A stretch of 34,570 bases of DNA, taken from positions 1 to 34,570 of the forward strand of contig CALDGA010000027.1 in assembly GCA_937942085.1 (NCBI GenBank), in the 5' to 3' direction. The notes beneath the pieces are model-generated. The model searched no databases. It was given only the letters and a program-made list of their open reading frames with translations, and had not been told where the DNA came from. The stretch is from an uncultured Flavobacteriales bacterium. Lineage in GTDB: Bacteria > Bacteroidota > Bacteroidia > Flavobacteriales > Schleiferiaceae. This document shows, piece by piece, positions 3,660 to 28,322 of the stretch (its first letter is position 1; the number at the start of each line of letters is the position of its first letter). The translations under genes and the position numbers were made by a program.

Positions 3660-4043
3660 ATGCACTCCGTACGACTCTTTCTTCTAACGTGCGCTTTGTA
3701 TATTCCATTTCTGATGGTAAGGTTATCAGAGTGGCTTGAGGATCTGTACGATGCCCATGGCAACCGTCTGATCCGACTAGTTTACTTCTTGATTCAGCCG
3801 TTTGTTATTTTGGCTAGGATGATCATTGATATTTTGGTCGATCCGTCCGTTGCATGCCGGCTCTGCTATTCGCGCAGCTATTTACGAACATTTGGCATAC
3901 GAGTTCGTCCGATTTATTTCGATAGCTATTTGTCCGTTTCTTTGCCCCGATGGCTTGGAACATTGCTGAAATGGGTGCTTCTCCCCGTAGCATTGTTCGA
4001 AGAGCTTTTCTACATTTTGAAGGTTAGTCATTTTAGAATTTAA
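3660..4043 (+). CDS. Small integral membrane protein, unknown function
   Basis: 127 residues with start ATG 3660, 13 bases after the upstream stop. No good ribosome site is visible, so translation may be coupled. Hydrophobic stretches at about 5-20, 40-57 and 98-118 suggest two or three membrane segments, with an amphipathic charged piece between. A CRLC pair sits mid-protein. No family recognised. The TAA stop (4041-4043) is in the centre of the 18-bp palindrome at 4033. Confidence 0.6.
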   Translation: MHSVRLFLLTCALYIPFLMVRLSEWLEDLYDAHGNRLIRLVYFLIQPFVILARMIIDILVDPSVACRLCYSRSYLRTFGIRVRPIYFDSYLSVSLPRWLGTLLKWVLLPVALFEELFYILKVSHFRI

Positions 4044-4050
4044 ATTCTAA
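4033..4050. repeat. 18-bp palindrome copy 2
   Basis: Exact copy, symmetry extended one base each side (4032-4051). It contains the TAA stop of the upstream membrane-protein gene and ends two bases before the ATG of the glycosyltransferase gene, leaving no room for a separate ribosome site. Confidence 0.9.
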
Positions 4051-4052
4051 AG

Positions 4053-5069
4053 ATGAGTAGGAAGTTGGTTGTACTGGGCGACTTGTCAACGGGCGATGAT
4101 CGGAATGTGGCGTTTTTACATACGATTTTGGTATGGAAAAAGCTCGGCGTTCCGTTTACGCTTTGGTTAACGGAGCGACCGCTATCGGATTTTCGACAAC
4201 TTTTTCCCGAGATTACGTTTGATCTCGTACGTCCCGGCGTATTTGATGTTGGTAACGTCAAGGATTCGGTTTTGGCCTGCTTTGATCAGCCGGGTATTTG
4301 GGATTACGTTGCCGGGATTAAGAACGCCGGATGTACTACGATTTGGATTACGAATCAACGACATCTAGACGCGACGGTTCGGTTGGATGGCGATGATCTG
4401 CTGGTGTGTAACAGCCAGCAGCAGGCCGATCAGATTACCCGTCAGCTCAGTGCCGAGAATCGTCCTGTTGTCCAAACGCGCGTCATTGCGCCCACATTGT
4501 CGTTAGAAAGTTTGCCGTTCCGATGTCGTCCGCATTTTCGAGGGCAGCGTTTTTATATCGGTCGTAGTGCTACCCCGCACAGGCACTGCTGGCCCGAGGA
4601 TTTGTTTATTTTGTTAACACGTTGTCAGGTACCGGTTTACGGCATTTTTGTTGGACTTAATGCAGAAATTCGTCGGCAGCTTGGCTTTCAACCTCCATGG
4701 ATTGTTTGTCTTAAGCCGACCTTTTTTAACCTCGAGCGGTTGTATGAGCTATTTCATTGCTTTTGGGCGTTGCATGATGACATTGGGCAAAGCGTTCCCT
4801 ATGCGGCGCTAAAAGCAATGGCCAAAGGTGTTCCGATTGTAGCACCGGCGGACAATACCTTATGGAATCCGTTTATCGTCCATAACGAAACCGGTCTTAT
4901 TTATCACAACTGCGAGGAACTTTTGGACTGCTTTCGTCAGCTTGCCGCAGATGAGCCGTTCCGACATCGTTTGGCTCAGAATGCTAGGGACAAGCTGAGC
5001 CAGGTGGTGGATGCGGAGCGCTCTGCCCAGAATTGGATGCAGTTGTTATCGGATGTAGGTGTTGTGTAA
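4053..5069 (+). CDS. GT-B fold glycosyltransferase (family 4-like)
   Basis: 338 residues starting at ATG 4053, immediately after palindrome copy 2, with no recognisable Shine-Dalgarno. The N-terminal half has a Rossmann-like start (LVVLGDLSTGD). The C-terminal half carries the donor-binding signature of GT4-type enzymes: VPYAALKAMAKGVPIVAPA (about 249-267), then NPFIVHNETGLIY and a helical end (FRHRLAQNARDKL). The first acidic residue of the usual E-x7-E pair is not obvious; an Ala/Lys pattern is seen instead. Phage glycosyltransferases modify DNA bases, host surface glycans or virion proteins. Which applies cannot be read here, though the nucleotide-metabolism neighbour allows DNA modification. 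Confidence 0.75.
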   Translation: MSRKLVVLGDLSTGDDRNVAFLHTILVWKKLGVPFTLWLTERPLSDFRQLFPEITFDLVRPGVFDVGNVKDSVLACFDQPGIWDYVAGIKNAGCTTIWITNQRHLDATVRLDGDDLLVCNSQQQADQITRQLSAENRPVVQTRVIAPTLSLESLPFRCRPHFRGQRFYIGRSATPHRHCWPEDLFILLTRCQVPVYGIFVGLNAEIRRQLGFQPPWIVCLKPTFFNLERLYELFHCFWALHDDIGQSVPYAALKAMAKGVPIVAPADNTLWNPFIVHNETGLIYHNCEELLDCFRQLAADEPFRHRLAQNARDKLSQVVDAERSAQNWMQLLSDVGVV

Positions 5070-5381: not shown

Positions 5382-6047
5382 ATGGCTACGCTATTGCAAG
5401 AAGTTTTTCACAATGAGGATGTTCCGGCCTCTCTGCTCATGACGATTTTTGTCAAATTTTCTGGCAGAGAGGCCTTAGATTTTGATGCCTTTGTCATTAA
5501 AACCCAACTTCGTGAACTTCTTAAGGAAGATCCACCCCGCCGTGCGTATAACAAACTGATGGCGGCCATTAACTTAGTCAAATCGAACGAGTTTTGGAAG
5601 GATCTTCCCTCTTTTGTTCTGCTTTCTAATGCCTTAGCCACAGGTCAATTTGACCCTCGAGTTGTGGATTTAGCGTCCATATGGGAAGTCAATCTTTCCA
5701 TCGGCGATTGTATCATTATTTGGCCTGAAGAACCTTCTGAGTTTTCTGACTCGATTCTCCGTTACATTCAACAGATGCTAAAACTGGAAGGTTACGTTAT
5801 CCCGCCTCGCCTTCTTCTAAAGATTTTCGGCGAAAAGATTCAAGATACATACGAAAACCTTATCTCGCTACAACAAGACCCTCTCCTCTACGAGATTGTA
5901 TTTGAAGTTGCTCGTCAGCGCACCGAAGAAGCCGATAAAGAACTGCTCAAACGCCTTCAAATAGCGAAAGATTACGCTAAACGTCTGGAATTAGACAACG
6001 TCGACCGCCTTTATGAGGCAGTTAGACAGGAACTAATAGCAGAATAG
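5382..6047 (+). CDS. Unknown alpha-helical protein
   Basis: 221 residues from ATG 5382, nine bases after the previous stop. No clear ribosome site, so the start is uncertain. Predicted mostly helical by eye: N-terminal FSGREALDFDAFV, middle IWPEEPSEFSDSILRYIQQML, and a long charged C-terminal helix with coiled-coil character (QRTEEADKELLKRLQIAKDY). No catalytic motif or family recognised. It is the last gene before the structured RNA region: its TAG (6045-6047) is only four bases from the start of the 18-bp closing helix of that region. Confidence 0.65.
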   Translation: MATLLQEVFHNEDVPASLLMTIFVKFSGREALDFDAFVIKTQLRELLKEDPPRRAYNKLMAAINLVKSNEFWKDLPSFVLLSNALATGQFDPRVVDLASIWEVNLSIGDCIIIWPEEPSEFSDSILRYIQQMLKLEGYVIPPRLLLKIFGEKIQDTYENLISLQQDPLLYEIVFEVARQRTEEADKELLKRLQIAKDYAKRLELDNVDRLYEAVRQELIAE

Positions 6048-6051
6048 CCAC

Positions 6052-6184
6052 ATCGGGACGCATATAACGGTAATTTGACCCTCTTTTAAGGACGAAAGTA
6101 GGGATGGCGCAGGTCCGGCCCCGATCAGACCATTCCTAACTCGGGGGGCGAACCGACACTGGCCTGCCGTTATAGCGTCCCGAT
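6052..6184 (+). ncRNA. Candidate structured RNA module closed by bulged 18-bp helix
   Basis: Arms ATCGGGACGC plus TATAACGG (6052-6070, one bulged A at 6062) pair perfectly with 6167-6184. Inside, CCCTCTTT (6079-6086) pairs with 6095-6103 across a single bulged T. CAGG (6110-6113) pairs with 6163-6166 and encloses CCCCGA (6119-6124) paired with TCGGGG (6141-6146). The result is a compact multibranched fold of about 133 nt with no ORF. I see no match to tRNA, SRP RNA, tmRNA or a riboswitch I know. Orientation is assumed from the flanking genes. It may be a free RNA or the 5' domain of the larger structured region that follows. Confidence 0.6.
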
Positions 6185-6270
6185 TGTTTGTTTTAAAAAC
6201 GAAAATACAAACTACCGATGAGCGGTGGAAAGCTAAAAAAGTCTAGAATAGCTAAAAAAAAGGACACACT

Positions 6271-7306
6271 CGTGGCGCCGGGGCCCCTGACGCCCCGTTT
6301 GCTTACCCATCTTCGGTGGGCCGTAAGCCCCAGCTTTGGCCCCCGTGCGGGGGCCTTATCCCCGTCCCTCCCTGCCCCTGAAGCGGGGCTATTTACCCGG
6401 GAGGGGTTAGGGGACCAGGTGCGTCCACGATTAAATGCCATATTACCTGGCGTTTTTAACCTATTTTGGGAAACAGCTAAAAAGTTAAATCTAGGCCCCT
6501 GTTTTAGCTTTTTACAGATAAAAGCTGGCGGGGCAAATTGTTAATTAAATGCCGCTATTAAACGCCGCATTTAACTTGATGTTGGTTCTGTTGACTAACC
6601 ATCCCCGAAAGCTGCCAGGCGCGTAGCTGAGGTTAAATTTTAGGCGTTTTGCTGGCATTTAATATTGGAGGCGTCCTCTTTTTTTATTTTCCCCGGGACG
6701 GTCCCGGGGGGAGGACGCCTAAGGCCCGGAGGGTCGTTATGAGACAATTAGCGAGCGCCCTCCGGGAGGCGGGTCTTTCCCGCCTCCCGGAGGGGAGGTC
6801 CAGTTTGTCTCCCGCGGAGAGGTTGAAAAGCCTCTCCGCGGAGAGGCGAACAATTTATATATTTTGTTGGCTCCCCGGCTATCAGCCGAGGGGCCAACTT
6901 TTCACCGTCACCCCGCAAGGGGTGACGGTGAGCGGCTTCTCCTGGCCCATTTATGGGCCCGGAGGGCCGCAGCGTCATTTCATGGTCCCTATAGAGAATT
7001 ATAGGGACCAGTTTTCCATTCTGGCGGCGGTCGCCGACGTGGCAGACCGCCATGCGTTTCTGGGAGACGGGGACGTCCTCAACGTCCCCGTATTCCCCCA
7101 CCACAACTCCCGGCGGTCTCGCCGGGAGTACGAGCTGGAGGACCACGTCCTCCAGCTCATTCGTCACCCGAACCTTCGGGTGGCGGTGGTGTAAATTTTG
7201 CCCCCCGTTTTTCGGGGGGCAATAGGGAAGGCAAACCCGGGGACGCTCCCCACGCAATACGACGGGGAGCGTCCCCTTTGTCCAACCGGGATGTTCCCGG
7301 TTGGAC
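6271..7306 (+). ncRNA. Candidate giant structured RNA / GC-rich hairpin array
   Basis: Arms listed by position. 5' module: 6279-6284/6292-6297; 6301-6306/6323-6328 enclosing a C(UUCG)G loop at 6311-6316; 6338-6345/6348-6355; nested 6360-6363/6410-6413, 6366-6372/6399-6405 and 6374-6378/6385-6389; 6415-6420/6445-6450; 6475-6482/6502-6509; 6495-6499/6530-6534; 6506-6512/6520-6526; 6545-6552/6567-6574. Array: 6669-6678/6711-6720 enclosing 6691-6698/6702-6709; 6758-6773/6779-6794 (16 bp); 6812-6822/6831-6841; 6867-6880/6884-6897 (one U.G, one mismatch); 6902-6914/6919-6931 with a GCAA loop; 6932-6970 compound; 6983-6993/7000-7010; 7026-7051; 7067-7076/7082-7091; 7106-7115/7120-7129; 7132-7143/7147-7158; 7165-7172/7175-7182; 7198-7207/7213-7222; 7239-7251/7264-7276; 7280-7291/7295-7306. 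Lines I counted here are about 67% G+C against about 40% in a nearby gene. UUCG, GNRA and U.G pairs favour + strand RNA. It recalls the large ornate phage RNAs (GOLLD, ROOL) in character, but I recognise no consensus. Confidence 0.65.
6739..7194 (+). CDS. Possible 151-residue protein encoded within the hairpin array
   Basis: ATG 6739 follows GGAGGG (6728-6733) by five bases, a credible ribosome site. By codon count GC3 is about 74%, clearly above position 2 (about 50%), the pattern of a real gene in G+C-rich DNA. Against it, nearly every part of the frame is also an arm of a perfect hairpin, the hairpins continue on both sides of the ORF, and the antisense strand is open too. The product has an Arg/Pro/Gly-rich N-terminus, a FTVTPQGVTV beta-like segment, FSILAAVADVADRHAF, and EYELEDHVLQLI near the end. 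No family recognised. It may be a gene with structure-constrained codons or a fortuitous frame in a structured RNA. Confidence 0.4.
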   Translation: MRQLASALREAGLSRLPEGRSSLSPAERLKSLSAERRTIYIFCWLPGYQPRGQLFTVTPQGVTVSGFSWPIYGPGGPQRHFMVPIENYRDQFSILAAVADVADRHAFLGDGDVLNVPVFPHHNSRRSRREYELEDHVLQLIRHPNLRVAVV

Positions 7307-7342
7307 TTTCCTTTAGCTATCCTGGAGCAAAGGAGGTTGGCG

Positions 7343-7642
7343 ATGGTAGATCGCGAGAAGGTTTTCCAGAATCCTGAGATTATTCAAGGTGCGATTGTGG
7401 AAGTACTTCAGTCATCGCTTGTTTCGGATCGTTTGCGCCGAAGCATTGTTATTACGCCAGCGGGCATTGTGGTAAAACTTGATGAGGACGATTGGAACTA
7501 TTTGCGACGGTTGGTAAAAACACAGCTTAATCATTTTTTGGATTTTTTGGATGCTATTTATTACCGAACCGACATTTTGTTAGATCCAGTGGAATTGCTA
7601 CCTAAGGTTCGATTTATACGAGGAGAGGTGTGGTATGAATGA
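7343..7642 (+). CDS. Small unknown protein after the RNA region
   Basis: 99 residues. ATG 7343 was chosen because AAAGGAGG ends at 7336 with a 6-base spacer. A further in-frame start at 7301 lies inside the last hairpin of the array. The protein is probably helix (EIIQGAIVEVLQSSL) then a hairpin (SIVITPAGIVVKL), then a long helix with DWNYLRRLVKTQLNHFLDFL. The ITPAGIVV segment echoes the VTPQG segments of the ORFs at 5101 and 6739. Codon composition returns to that of the rest of the genome. No known family. Confidence 0.7.
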   Translation: MVDREKVFQNPEIIQGAIVEVLQSSLVSDRLRRSIVITPAGIVVKLDEDDWNYLRRLVKTQLNHFLDFLDAIYYRTDILLDPVELLPKVRFIRGEVWYE

Positions 7643-7707: not shown

Positions 7708-8862
7708 ATGTCGGATCGTCCGTTGCTTGTGGCTATATCGGATATCCACCTGCGAAATTCTGGTAGATATCTCTTTGCATCTAGACCATTCATTCAAGAT
7801 GATTTGATCGTAGCGATTGATGAGTTTTGTCGTTTGGTTGAGCAATTGAAACCGAAAGGGGTTGTCGTTTCTGGGGATTTTTTCCACAGCAAACAGATTT
7901 CTGCCGGGGATCTCGAACTGGCTATGAAGATCATTGACGTCTGTAAAGCCAATTGCGATGAGCTATTCTATGTACAGGGACAGCATGATCGATTCGAGCC
8001 TCACTTTATCTCGGTTCTAAATAAAAAAGCCATTTATCTGAACGATTTAGAATTTAAATTCTACGGGTATACGCTGCGTGGGCTGGATTATCACTTAAAT
8101 CCCTTGGAGGTTATCTACGACATTCCAGAGGCAGATATCTTTGTTACGCATCAAACCTGGAAAGAACGACCGAATGAGGTTTTCGGAACCATTACCATCC
8201 AAGAATTAACACGACGGTTCCGACTTACTATTTGCGGCGACATCCATACGCATGCCATCTATCGTGTGGATGGCAAAATCGAAAAGCTATTTGCGGAATC
8301 GGGACGCAAATGGCATTTTCCACGAATGTTTGTTTCGCCGGGACCACTATGTTTGCAGAAGCTCGATATTAAAGAAAAATGCGGTGTGGCCGTTGTATGG
8401 GATGATTTGAGCGTCCAGAGTGTCTTTCTCCCTGGACGTATTGTCGCCGTTGAACGGTTTTATTCCGATGTATCCGTTCGAGATTTTATCGAAAAACGAT
8501 TGCCACAACTACTAACGAGTGCGCAATTGCTACCCGAACCAATACGGCCGATCATTGTGCTGGCAAAATGCATCGAACCGCTTCCACAACTACATGAACT
8601 AGCACAGCTTCTCGAAGGGAAGGGGTTCGTATTCTTTGCGTTTGAAAAATTACAACACTCTAATCCAACCGTTGATATGGCAACGCCCAAAACAATTCAA
8701 CAGATTATCAACGAAATCTTTGAAGCCAATGTGCATAAGGAATATATATTGCGACTTTTTGACGCCGCAAAACATGGGCGGCTGGATGAGGAACTTTCAG
8801 CGATCGCAAAACAGCTAAAACCTACCAAGAAGGGAACTGCAAACGATGCTTCAACTACATAA
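7708..8862 (+). CDS. sbcD: SbcD/Mre11-like (T4 gp47-type) recombination nuclease subunit
   Basis: 384 residues with start ATG 7708 behind GGAGGAGG. Calcineurin-like phosphoesterase motifs appear in order: SDIHL (11-15), GDFFH (56-60), GQHD (91-94, where GNHD is usual), THQ at about 149 and GDIHTH near 178. These ligate the two metals of Mre11-type nucleases. With the SbcC partner encoded next (17-bp overlap) it should form the end-processing MR complex used in recombination-dependent phage replication. The Gln in place of the motif III Asn is unusual and may lower or change activity. An imperfect copy of the 18-bp palindrome lies within the coding sequence at 8047-8064. Confidence 0.92.
   Translation: MSDRPLLVAISDIHLRNSGRYLFASRPFIQDDLIVAIDEFCRLVEQLKPKGVVVSGDFFHSKQISAGDLELAMKIIDVCKANCDELFYVQGQHDRFEPHFISVLNKKAIYLNDLEFKFYGYTLRGLDYHLNPLEVIYDIPEADIFVTHQTWKERPNEVFGTITIQELTRRFRLTICGDIHTHAIYRVDGKIEKLFAESGRKWHFPRMFVSPGPLCLQKLDIKEKCGVAVVWDDLSVQSVFLPGRIVAVERFYSDVSVRDFIEKRLPQLLTSAQLLPEPIRPIIVLAKCIEPLPQLHELAQLLEGKGFVFFAFEKLQHSNPTVDMATPKTIQQIINEIFEANVHKEYILRLFDAAKHGRLDEELSAIAKQLKPTKKGTANDASTT
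8047..8064. repeat. Imperfect palindrome copy inside sbcD (17 of 18)
   Basis: Differs from the recurrent 18-bp palindrome only in its last base (C for A), which breaks the outer pair. It is read in frame as LEFKFY within the phosphoesterase. It is the only copy inside an ORF body and not at a gene junction, so it may be a chance relic, a weak site, or the ancestor of the family. Confidence 0.6.
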
Positions 8863-11805: not shown

Positions 11806-12156
11806 ATGGCTACAACAAAGAATAAACGGAACAGTCAGACTTCTACATTTTGGACGGCGCTGAAACTTCTTATATTACATCATTTTCAGGTCGACTCCAT
11901 TAAGATCGTCGAACGTTCTGACGGTAAGCACATTTGCGCGGAAGTTTCTTATAAGGATGCACCCTCATTTCGGTTCTTTATTTATCTTAGTGCCGATGGA
12001 TCCGCAATACACACTGTTGGCGAAGTTTCAAGCCGCGATAATTCTGAATCTCTATTTCGACTCGCGATGGCGATACTGGACGAACTAATGCCCTCATCAA
12101 GTCGCGGGGAACACTATTGGATACGCAGACTTTTAGAGTTGAGTCCGGCTGACTAA
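11806..12156 (+). CDS. Duplicated small unknown protein, copy A
   Basis: 116 residues with start ATG 11806 and GGAGG at 11796-11800. Residues from FWTALKLLILHH to the end are repeated in the ORF that ends at 12659. The fold appears to be a helix followed by a three-strand sheet (SIKIVERSDGKHICAEVSY, FRFFIYLSADGSAIHTV) and a C-terminal helix (YWIRRLLELSPAD). No family recognised. Copy A has the good ribosome site and its own N-terminus (MATTKNKRN), so it is probably the parent gene. Confidence 0.7.
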   Translation: MATTKNKRNSQTSTFWTALKLLILHHFQVDSIKIVERSDGKHICAEVSYKDAPSFRFFIYLSADGSAIHTVGEVSSRDNSESLFRLAMAILDELMPSSSRGEHYWIRRLLELSPAD

Positions 12157-12261
12157 GACCGATTTGGTTTAGAATTTAAATTCTAATTAATCGGTAATCA
12201 GGCAAAGCTTCGCATAGCGGTTGGAGAACGACGTATGACAGATGAAAAATCGGTAACGATA
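11850..12261 (+). repeat. Direct repeat unit A of a 0.4-kb tandem duplication
   Basis: 412 bp matching 12353-12765 at an offset of 503 (504 after a one-base indel at 12231). It covers most of the small gene, the palindrome, the intergenic region and the first nine codons of the SF2 helicase gene. The intergenic parts are almost identical and the differences cluster near the 3' end of the small gene. Confidence 0.9.
12169..12186. repeat. 18-bp palindrome copy 3
   Basis: Exact copy 12 bases after the TAA of duplicated gene copy A. An outer inverted repeat ACCGATT ... AATCGGT surrounds it with a 3- and 2-base interruption, making a long interrupted hairpin. Confidence 0.9.
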
Positions 12262-12302: not shown

Positions 12303-12659
12303 ATGTATTACGTAAAGGTGTCAGTACATGTGGGAACATCCGGAAGAATTTATTGGACGGCGCTGAAACTTCTTATATTACACCATTTTCGGGTCGACTC
12401 CATTAAGATCGTCGAACGTTCTGACGGTAAGTACATTGGCGCGGAAGTTTCTTATAAGGATGCACCCTCATTTCGGTTCTTTATTTATCTTAGTGCCGAT
12501 GGATCCGCAATACACACTGTTGGCACAGGTTCAAGCCGCGATAATTCTGAATATATATATCGACTCGTTCGAGCGATACTGGACGGAATACTGCCCTCCG
12601 CACGTCTAGAGGAACACTATTGGATACGCAGACTTTTAGAGTTGAGTCCGGCTGACTAA
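12303..12659 (+). CDS. Duplicated small unknown protein, copy B
   Basis: 118 residues from ATG 12303; an in-frame ATG at 12261 would add 14 residues and would overlap the helicase remnant. Neither has a strong ribosome site, so expression may be low or coupled to the remnant peptide. From YWTALKLLILHH onward it parallels copy A, with changes concentrated around YIYRLVRAILDGILPSARLEEHY. The N-terminus differs from copy A because the duplication breakpoint lies just before TGGACGGCGC. The frame is open throughout, which argues for retained function. Confidence 0.6.
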   Translation: MYYVKVSVHVGTSGRIYWTALKLLILHHFRVDSIKIVERSDGKYIGAEVSYKDAPSFRFFIYLSADGSAIHTVGTGSSRDNSEYIYRLVRAILDGILPSARLEEHYWIRRLLELSPAD

Positions 12660-12765
12660 GACCGATTTGGTTTAGAATTTAAATTCTAATTAATCGGTAA
12701 TCAGGCAAAGCTTCGCGTAACGGTTGGAGAACGAACGTATGACAGATGAAAAATCGGTAACGATA
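12353..12765 (+). repeat. Direct repeat unit B of the tandem duplication
   Basis: Partner of 11850-12261. It includes copy B of the small gene, palindrome copy 4 and the true start of the SF2 helicase gene. One extra A before the helicase ATG lengthens the ribosome-site spacer relative to unit A. Confidence 0.9.
12672..12689. repeat. 18-bp palindrome copy 4
   Basis: Exact copy, located 12 bases after the TAA of duplicated gene copy B, with the same outer ACCGATT/AATCGGT arms as copy 3. It arose by the tandem duplication and so is not an independent insertion. The helicase gene starts about 50 bases downstream. Confidence 0.9.
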
Positions 12766-28300: not shown

Positions 28301-28322
28301 CGGGACGCTCCCGTATTTTTTT
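28301..28322 (+). terminator. Short intrinsic terminator after small membrane gene
   Basis: CGGGA-CGC-TCCCG (28301-28313) followed by TATTTTTTT. The stem is only 5 bp, so weaker than the one at 28060. The apex matches that of the hairpin at 7239-7276. Confidence 0.6.

Follow-up and report, generated by a model that had tools for sequence, protein, structure and literature searches.

The stretch at positions 6668–7317 of the window (the whole of contig 27, 34,570 bases, from a metagenome-assembled genome of 283 contigs) is best read as a transcription unit holding a small phage gene; the mRNA would be armoured with hairpins from end to end, probably nuclease-resistant, and provided with a folding switch at its ribosome-binding site. 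About half of our confidence goes to this reading. It brings together a chain of hairpins, a protein frame that overlaps them, and promoter-like and terminator-like motifs at the two ends; the features are as follows.

6631–6667, plus strand: bipartite promoter-like motif, GGTTAAA with GGCATTTAATATTG 23 nt downstream
6668–7317, plus strand: putative hairpin-chain transcript of 650 nt (5' leader, 151-aa frame, 3' hairpins), delimited by motifs and folding
6669–6720, plus strand: 5'-terminal hairpin, a 10-bp outer stem around an 8-bp stem, starting at the putative RNA start
6725–6733, plus strand: predicted ribosome-binding site CCCGGAGGG, complementary to 6758–6766 (CCCTCCGGG)
6739–7194, plus strand: protein frame, ATG at 6739, 151 codons, TAA at 7192–7194, overlapping 11 stems
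6758–6794, plus strand: perfect hairpin of 16 bp, competing with the pairing of the ribosome site
6812–7185, plus strand: ten further in-frame hairpins, at 6812, 6866, 6902, 6939, 6983, 7026, 7067, 7106, 7132 and 7162
7198–7222, plus strand: hairpin of 10 bp just past the stop codon
7239–7276, plus strand: hairpin of 13 bp in the 3' part
7280–7317, plus strand: terminal hairpin of 12 bp, followed by TTTCCTTTAGC(TAT), terminator-like

Sixteen stems with arms of 7–16 bp were counted in 6669–7306 (20 in 6269–7310), in good agreement with an earlier note on this DNA, which had reported about fifteen such stems in the last 640 bases. The loops in the array measure 3–12 nt, with the exception of the outer stem at 6669–6720, which encloses another stem; the array consists of local hairpins in a row and has no multi-junction fold. 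Clustering beyond chance, as also claimed in that note, is borne out by a minimum free energy of -440.9 for 6668–7317 versus -273.7 ± 6.2 for 20 dinucleotide shuffles (z -27). Perfect hairpins (arm of at least 8, loop of 3–20) are concentrated here, as 12 of the 35 in the 34.6-kb window start in 6500–7499. When z-scores were computed for 200-nt windows on both strands, with a step of 150 nt, the six lowest values (-9.6 to -14.9) belonged to windows starting at 6751, 6901 and 7051, each on both strands. In 38 loci of phage relatives (L032–L069), any 700 nt hold at most four perfect hairpins, compared with 11 in the array. The stems do not form a repeat family, as had been stated before: direct repeats in 6040–7310 comprise 15 families of 10–18 nt with two or three copies each, and no shared unit of the kind found in REP/BIME, CRISPR or attC-type arrays was present, only these short repeats.

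G+C makes up 71% of the stem pairs versus 28% of the unpaired bases, and the unpaired bases of the plus strand are rich in T (0.41) rather than in A. Mismatches within the stems of 6269–7310 are few (three G.T, one A.C, one C.C and one C.T), and the two strands of 6669–7306 fold about equally well (-429 and -411). The CTTCGG at 6311–6316 and the GCAA at 6915–6918 do lie at the positions given for them, but the argument for the plus strand from wobble pairs proved weak for the array. The plus strand is probably the source of the RNA nevertheless, because promoter-like motif, frame and terminator-like motif all lie on it.

The protein frame is preceded by GGAGGG at 6728–6733. Taken by itself, the stop-free length is only slightly unusual for a sequence with such stems, as 3.7% of 20,000 structure-preserving randomisations contained a plus-strand frame of this length (P 0.037). 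In contrast, the lower GC of its second codon positions and its amino-acid log-odds were reached by none of 3000 structure-preserving randomisations, even with the best of six frames allowed, which speaks against a non-coding array. Scored by its amino acids (-0.004), the frame nevertheless ranks below 29 of the 30 window genes; these genes were also the training set for the score. An antisense frame at 6748–7257 shares the GC dip and has the second-best score (-0.047), above the random mean; the choice of strand therefore depends on the amino-acid score, the AlphaFold2 prediction and the ribosome site. Without an alignment, AlphaFold2 gave a pLDDT of 54 and a pTM of 0.50 for the 151-aa frame (36–44 for the other four models). 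The antisense frame that overlaps it reached 32 and 0.19, and was rejected for its poorer score and the lack of a confident fold.

Searches of Pfam, PHROGs and NCBIfam gave no family for the 151-aa protein. Annotated phages yielded three matches (E at least 0.08) but no relative, and none was found in viral or genome contigs or in ten relatives of the phage. Among 395 genomes of the host order, only its own genome and one other gave a match, the latter over 46 residues with E 0.007, which was taken as noise, as was a match to OLE-associated protein B (E 0.21). Foldseek structure searches returned nothing significant; RNase H-like matches (E at least 0.14, TM about 0.2) and viral matches (E at least 0.16) were likewise considered noise.

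Structure and coding signal can be separated by computation. Synonymous-codon shuffles that keep protein and codon usage gave a mean of -203.8 ± 10.4 (n=100) versus -312.2 for the native frame (z -10.4). Run beside controls, the frame had a z-score of -10.1, whereas 25 segments of 18 of the 30 listed window genes averaged -1.5, with the lowest value, -6.6, in the UvsX-like gene. Synonymous shuffling thus destroys the stems, indicating that RNA shape and protein are apparently encoded together. The computation shows that the stems are due to codon choice and not to the protein sequence; the protein does not account for the RNA shape, nor does the shape account for the protein signal. Two properties expected of a coding mRNA with selected structure were found, namely a coding signal beyond that of the structure and a structure beyond that of synonymous shuffles.

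The reported region is bounded by a gene at 5382–6047 and a gene that starts at 7343 (or 7301) and ends at 7642. On the basis of promoter-like and terminator-like motifs it can be divided into three putative units, one rightward (about 6668–7317) and two leftward (about 6427 to 6254 and about 6541 to 6473). All transcript ends are deduced from recurring motifs, which were chosen by eye before they were counted. The features upstream of the array are listed below.

6050–6186, either strand: separate structured element after the gene at 5382–6047, with a closing stem of about 18 bp
6254–6427, minus strand: putative leftward structured RNA of 174 nt with paired 5' and 3' ends and a 3' run of 8 T plus AGCTATT
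6430–6461, minus strand: promoter-like motif ahead of the 174-nt RNA, GGTTAAA with GGCATTTAAT 22 nt downstream
6473–6541, minus strand: putative short leftward RNA of about 69 nt, a stem and then TTTTTAGCTGTTT, motif-based
6544–6576, minus strand: promoter-like motif ahead of the RNA of about 69 nt, AGTTAAA with GGCATTTAAT 23 nt downstream

The element GGCATTTAATATTG is found at 6654 of the window and at 8584 of locus L078, on contig C86, and the complete bipartite motif of 6631–6667 recurs with the same spacing at L078:8561–8597. Both copies of GGCATTTAATATTG are followed, directly or after one base, by AGG(C/A)GTCCTC, and the exact 13-mer GGCATTTAATATT occurs at only these two places in the whole assembly. 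Downstream of the second copy, at L078:8597–8720, lies a long hairpin (-56.8 and z -5.6 on the plus strand versus -39.2 on the minus strand), which ends in TTTAGCTATT and carries no long frame. GGCATTTAAT, with (A/G)GTTAAA 22–23 bases ahead, is also present on the minus strand at 6553 and 6439; the exact sequence occurs four times in the phage pieces examined versus 0.27 expected from mononucleotide shuffles. Similar bipartite sites (an A run, about 22 bases, and GGCATnnTAAnATG) precede structured stretches in the relatives, in a list made by eye. A sigma-70 scan found no promoter.

The terminator-like sequence TTTAGCTRT occurs nine times in 95 kb versus 1.9 expected (at most five in 50 mononucleotide shuffles), including sites at 7312 on the plus strand and at 6481 and 6256 on the minus strand. 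A strong hairpin stands directly ahead of it at 7312, L104:470 and L105:111; at 28320, 6256, 6481 and L078:8710 the stem is less strong or more distant, and no clear stem is seen at 8819 of the window and L100:5317, both on the minus strand. The A+T stretch at 6428–6665, upstream of the array, is rich in motifs. Long-range pairs of TTAAATGCC and GGCATTTAA, at first candidates for RNA stems or iterons, were reinterpreted as promoter cores in opposite orientations; over the whole window this motif is not enriched (19 matches with at most one mismatch versus 23 expected). The rightward unit, the two leftward units and the hairpin RNA of L078 look like one co-regulated set, since they share a promoter-like motif unlike the palindrome ahead of several other phage genes.

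The 174-nt stretch folds better on the minus strand (-95.5, z -4.0, none of 200 shuffles as good) than on the plus strand (-86.4, z -2.2, 7 of 200), and its closing stem contains one G.U pair that would be A.C on the plus strand. For the RNA of about 69 nt, the fold does not differ significantly from those of shuffled sequences (z -1.3, with 22 of 200 as good). On the plus strand, 6282–6430 reaches only z -1.6 (15 of 200 shuffles as good). The earlier note had assigned the approximately 400 bases before the array to the same plus-strand RNA, as part of a candidate giant RNA of about 1 kb. A single ornate non-coding RNA of this size was rejected, as the 5' part is weakly folded on the plus strand and carries leftward promoter-like and terminator-like motifs, and the motifs delimit a plus-strand transcript of only about 650 nt beside the two leftward units; what survives of the proposal is an unusual structured phage RNA, probably from the plus strand. 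The element at 6050–6186 (z -5.5 on either strand, none of 200 shuffles as good) lies outside the region described in that note.

The same data bear on the alternative that the unit is a non-coding structured RNA of about 650 nt, with the same putative promoter and terminator, in which the 151-codon frame is fortuitous or the remnant of a coding ancestor. The frequency of equally long stop-free frames among the randomisations, the open antisense frame and the lack of homologues of the protein in the searched collections would fit this view, as would the start of a frameless hairpin RNA at the same promoter-like motif in L078 and the similar motifs ahead of structured stretches in relatives. 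We nevertheless regard it as unlikely, albeit as the strongest alternative, because the coding statistics point to precisely the frame that opens with an ATG behind a ribosome site, and because of the difference between the AlphaFold2 predictions for the sense and antisense frames.

Judged by profile searches (in PHROGs, with 20 window proteins in all), the genes of the window are those of a large phage. They include a terminase (phrog_675), a UvsX-like recombinase, a primase, helicases, a family-A DNA polymerase with a uracil-DNA-glycosylase domain, and an SbcC-like protein preceded by a calcineurin-like phosphoesterase, which by its place before the SbcC-like gene would be SbcD. A palindrome, TTAGAATTTAAATTCTAA, occurs eight times in the window (seven exact, one with a single mismatch) versus 0.02 expected at up to three mismatches. 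Seven of the eight sites are at or just before gene starts and the site at 8047 is inside a gene; the palindrome is possibly an operator or promoter. Two intergenic stretches, 12145–12240 and 12648–12723, are near-identical direct duplicates that each contain it. All 24 sites of the 16-base core in the assembly fall on seven of its 283 contigs. In the viral collection, only two records contain the exact 18-mer, with one copy each. The seven contigs, together about 95 kb, would thus represent one phage.

Window 1329, 4033, 8047, 12169, 12672, 16600, 23917 and 31105: sites of the palindrome TTAGAATTTAAATTCTAA
Contigs C27, C56, C86, C106, C150, C204 and C253: contigs with the palindrome core
L058:12274–19674 (relative G101) and L078:11256–15557: RNA-polymerase beta-subunit-like proteins

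Contig C86 carries a 1434-codon frame that is 42–43% identical to a protein of G101, and this G101 protein matches, among other families, those of phage RNA polymerase beta subunits. Such matches indicate that phages of this group probably have a multisubunit RNA polymerase of their own. Relatives found with the terminase (12 loci, 46–52% identity) have kept the order of the replication block, but no hairpin array was found beside their SbcD-like gene, nor any match to the RNA; the material comprised G109 up to its last 465 bases and, for the searched records G102, G103 and G107, pieces. Queries with the SbcD-like protein, the DNA polymerase and the gene at 7301–7642 found no relatives in viral contigs, and the terminase found none in genome contigs. 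An RNA homologue of the hairpin region was not found in the collections searched.

SbcC is a subunit of a palindrome-specific nuclease, and the phosphoesterase and SbcC-like genes begin 0.4 kb downstream of the array. Palindromes lying beside the SbcC-like gene and the replication block could function at the DNA level, as sites for single-strand initiation, replication, recombination or packaging. The stems are almost purely Watson–Crick and equal on both strands, and the scarcity of G.U pairs with equal folding of the strands fits a DNA-level or a mutational origin as well; the motif-rich A+T stretch upstream would also be in keeping with a DNA-level role. However, four relatives (G101, G104, G106 and G109) have these genes before the replication block without an array, the A+T motifs can be accounted for as promoters, the coding signal overlaps the stems, and the GC skew makes no lasting turn at the array. 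A DNA-level function is accordingly considered improbable, and more so than a non-coding RNA.

A mutational by-product is also conceivable: repeated template switching at quasi-palindromes would have homogenised the arms in an ordinary G+C-rich acquired gene, with no selection for RNA shape. The arms are near perfect with no excess of wobble pairs, and the G+C content at codon position 3 is 0.74 in the frame versus 0.41–0.50 in seven other window genes. Template switching is described as homogenising inverted-repeat arms in yeast coding DNA (PMC8604942), where, as far as that source describes, near-perfect inverted repeats within genes likewise arise, but as single events in many genes, whereas the hairpin gene has 16 stems in 640 bases. 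Against such a process, the array is limited to one 650-nt unit from putative promoter to terminator, with stems that extend past the frame on both sides and a marked difference in G+C between paired and unpaired bases; moreover, in the other six phage contigs no 700 nt were listed with more than three perfect hairpins, compared with 11 in the array. We judge this explanation slightly less probable still than a role of the DNA itself.

We propose that the hairpin-armoured mRNA works as follows. The 5'-terminal stem, the stems of the coding region and the stacked 3' stems would shield the ends and the interior from nucleases, so that the message may last through the infection. That the first stem starts at the putative first bases, and that the last stem is the terminator-like hairpin, suggests protection of ends and interior alike, and it is from this arrangement that we infer a nuclease-resistant message. 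During synthesis, the ribosome-binding site at 6725–6733 would pair first with 6758–6766, until completion of the 16-bp hairpin at 6758–6794 undoes this pairing and leaves the site in at most a weak local hairpin of 5 bp; translation would start only after the polymerase has cleared the switch. In computed folds of the growing transcript, the ribosome site is paired with 6758–6766 for 3' ends from 6765 to 6785; the pairing is partial at 6790 and gone at 6795. In the best fold after the switch it lies in the weak 5-bp local hairpin, with the A of the start codon paired, and in the centroid of the full-length fold it is unpaired.

Nuclease resistance and folding switch are both read from sequence and predicted folding, and selection for RNA shape, like the function of the chain, is presumed rather than observed. 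The weak ribosome-site hairpin, the low rank of the amino-acid score and the occurrence of the palindrome before several, not most, genes lower the certainty of the mechanism, and this is included in the confidence given above. A bolder idea, which we consider a long shot, is that of a self-contained protein–RNA module, in which the end-to-end hairpin mRNA, shaped by evolution, and the two leftward RNAs are made from a promoter class of their own, which the multisubunit RNA polymerase of the phage might read, and the mRNA also acts as an RNA, for example bound or packaged by its own protein or serving as a sink for host RNA-handling proteins.

Several known systems share some of these properties. 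RNA viruses and single-stranded RNA phages combine protein and dense RNA structure in one sequence, as the hairpin gene does; unlike these, the chain is one gene of a double-stranded DNA phage and consists of near-perfect short-loop hairpins. The ompA leader, a stabilising 5' stem-loop, and toxin mRNAs, in which metastable structures switch the ribosome site, resemble the proposed logic of terminal stems against nucleases and transient sequestration of the ribosome site. Such known mRNAs have one or few structures, mainly in their leaders, whereas the hairpin gene has stems in leader, coding region and tail. To our knowledge, the known giant phage RNAs are non-coding, and fully structured messages are known mainly from RNA viruses. 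Among the papers listed in literature searches, no title or abstract describes such a gene, which is weak evidence of its absence in print.

Rfam covariance models gave no family at the gathering threshold for the hairpin region, in line with the earlier failure to recognise GOLLD or ROOL. The 28 sub-threshold matches in 6000–7400 with E of at most 5 include none to GOLLD, ROOL or OLE, and the best is to BjrC80 (31.2 bits versus a threshold of 80). A CsrB/RsmZ-type sponge was rejected, as the loops lack a repeated GGA (by eye) and RsmW scored 22.8 bits versus a threshold of 52. PMC12286853 presents GOLLD and ROOL as phage RNAs whose elaborate structure shows covariation, and places them near tRNA genes 'often', in its own limiting word; like these two, which in its account reside in phages and prophages, and like OLE, the hairpin chain is large and strongly structured. 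A diverged member of this class beyond the reach of Rfam, for which phage location and a large structured RNA would speak, is very improbable, given the lack of any model match, local hairpins in place of conserved junctions and pseudoknots, a frame with coding signal through the middle, and no tRNA gene in the 34.6-kb window, the contig being a fragment.

The idea of a giant RNA fits better with another stretch, in the relative IMGVR_UViG_3300021075_000003 (L032:2745–4385, about 59.7–61.4 kb), where a candidate RNA of 1.6 kb is flanked, by eye, by a TATAAT-like box ahead and a terminator-like hairpin at its end. It has 16 stems in L032:2720–4385 with nine G.T, one C.T and no A.C mismatches, and L032:2720–4350 folds better on the plus strand (-696) than on the minus strand (-589). 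Its 200-nt windows reach only z -4.5 (mononucleotide shuffles), a 174-codon frame at 3759–4283 overlaps its second half, and no Rfam family was found at threshold, with one match at E 0.3.

Other structured elements were seen in the relatives. Locus L033:13031–14650 (IMGVR_UViG_3300025133_006513) contains 15 copies, by pattern count, of a hairpin repeat of about 39 nt, TGCCCC(A/T)TCCA(A/G)GT...GGGGATTGCTT, mostly 86–112 bases apart with unrelated spacers, a CRISPR-like layout in a phage. ARAGORN predicted 27 and 13 tRNA genes in L034 and L035 (the first 39 kb of IMGVR_UViG_3300017991_000049), one of which is counted twice in their overlap. Pieces resembling tRNA T-arms were noted by eye in structured stretches at L046:12795–13480 and L033:16160–16460, for which ARAGORN gave no tRNA, and a Group I intron is located at L046:18277–19106.

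If the hairpin-armoured message is real, selection can produce extreme message structure in a DNA virus through codon choice, and the stability, timing or RNA role of a message folded from end to end would become testable. In addition, candidate transcription-signal motifs have been gained for a phage group with a probable multisubunit RNA polymerase of its own, and the findings suggest that its phages make several structured RNAs.
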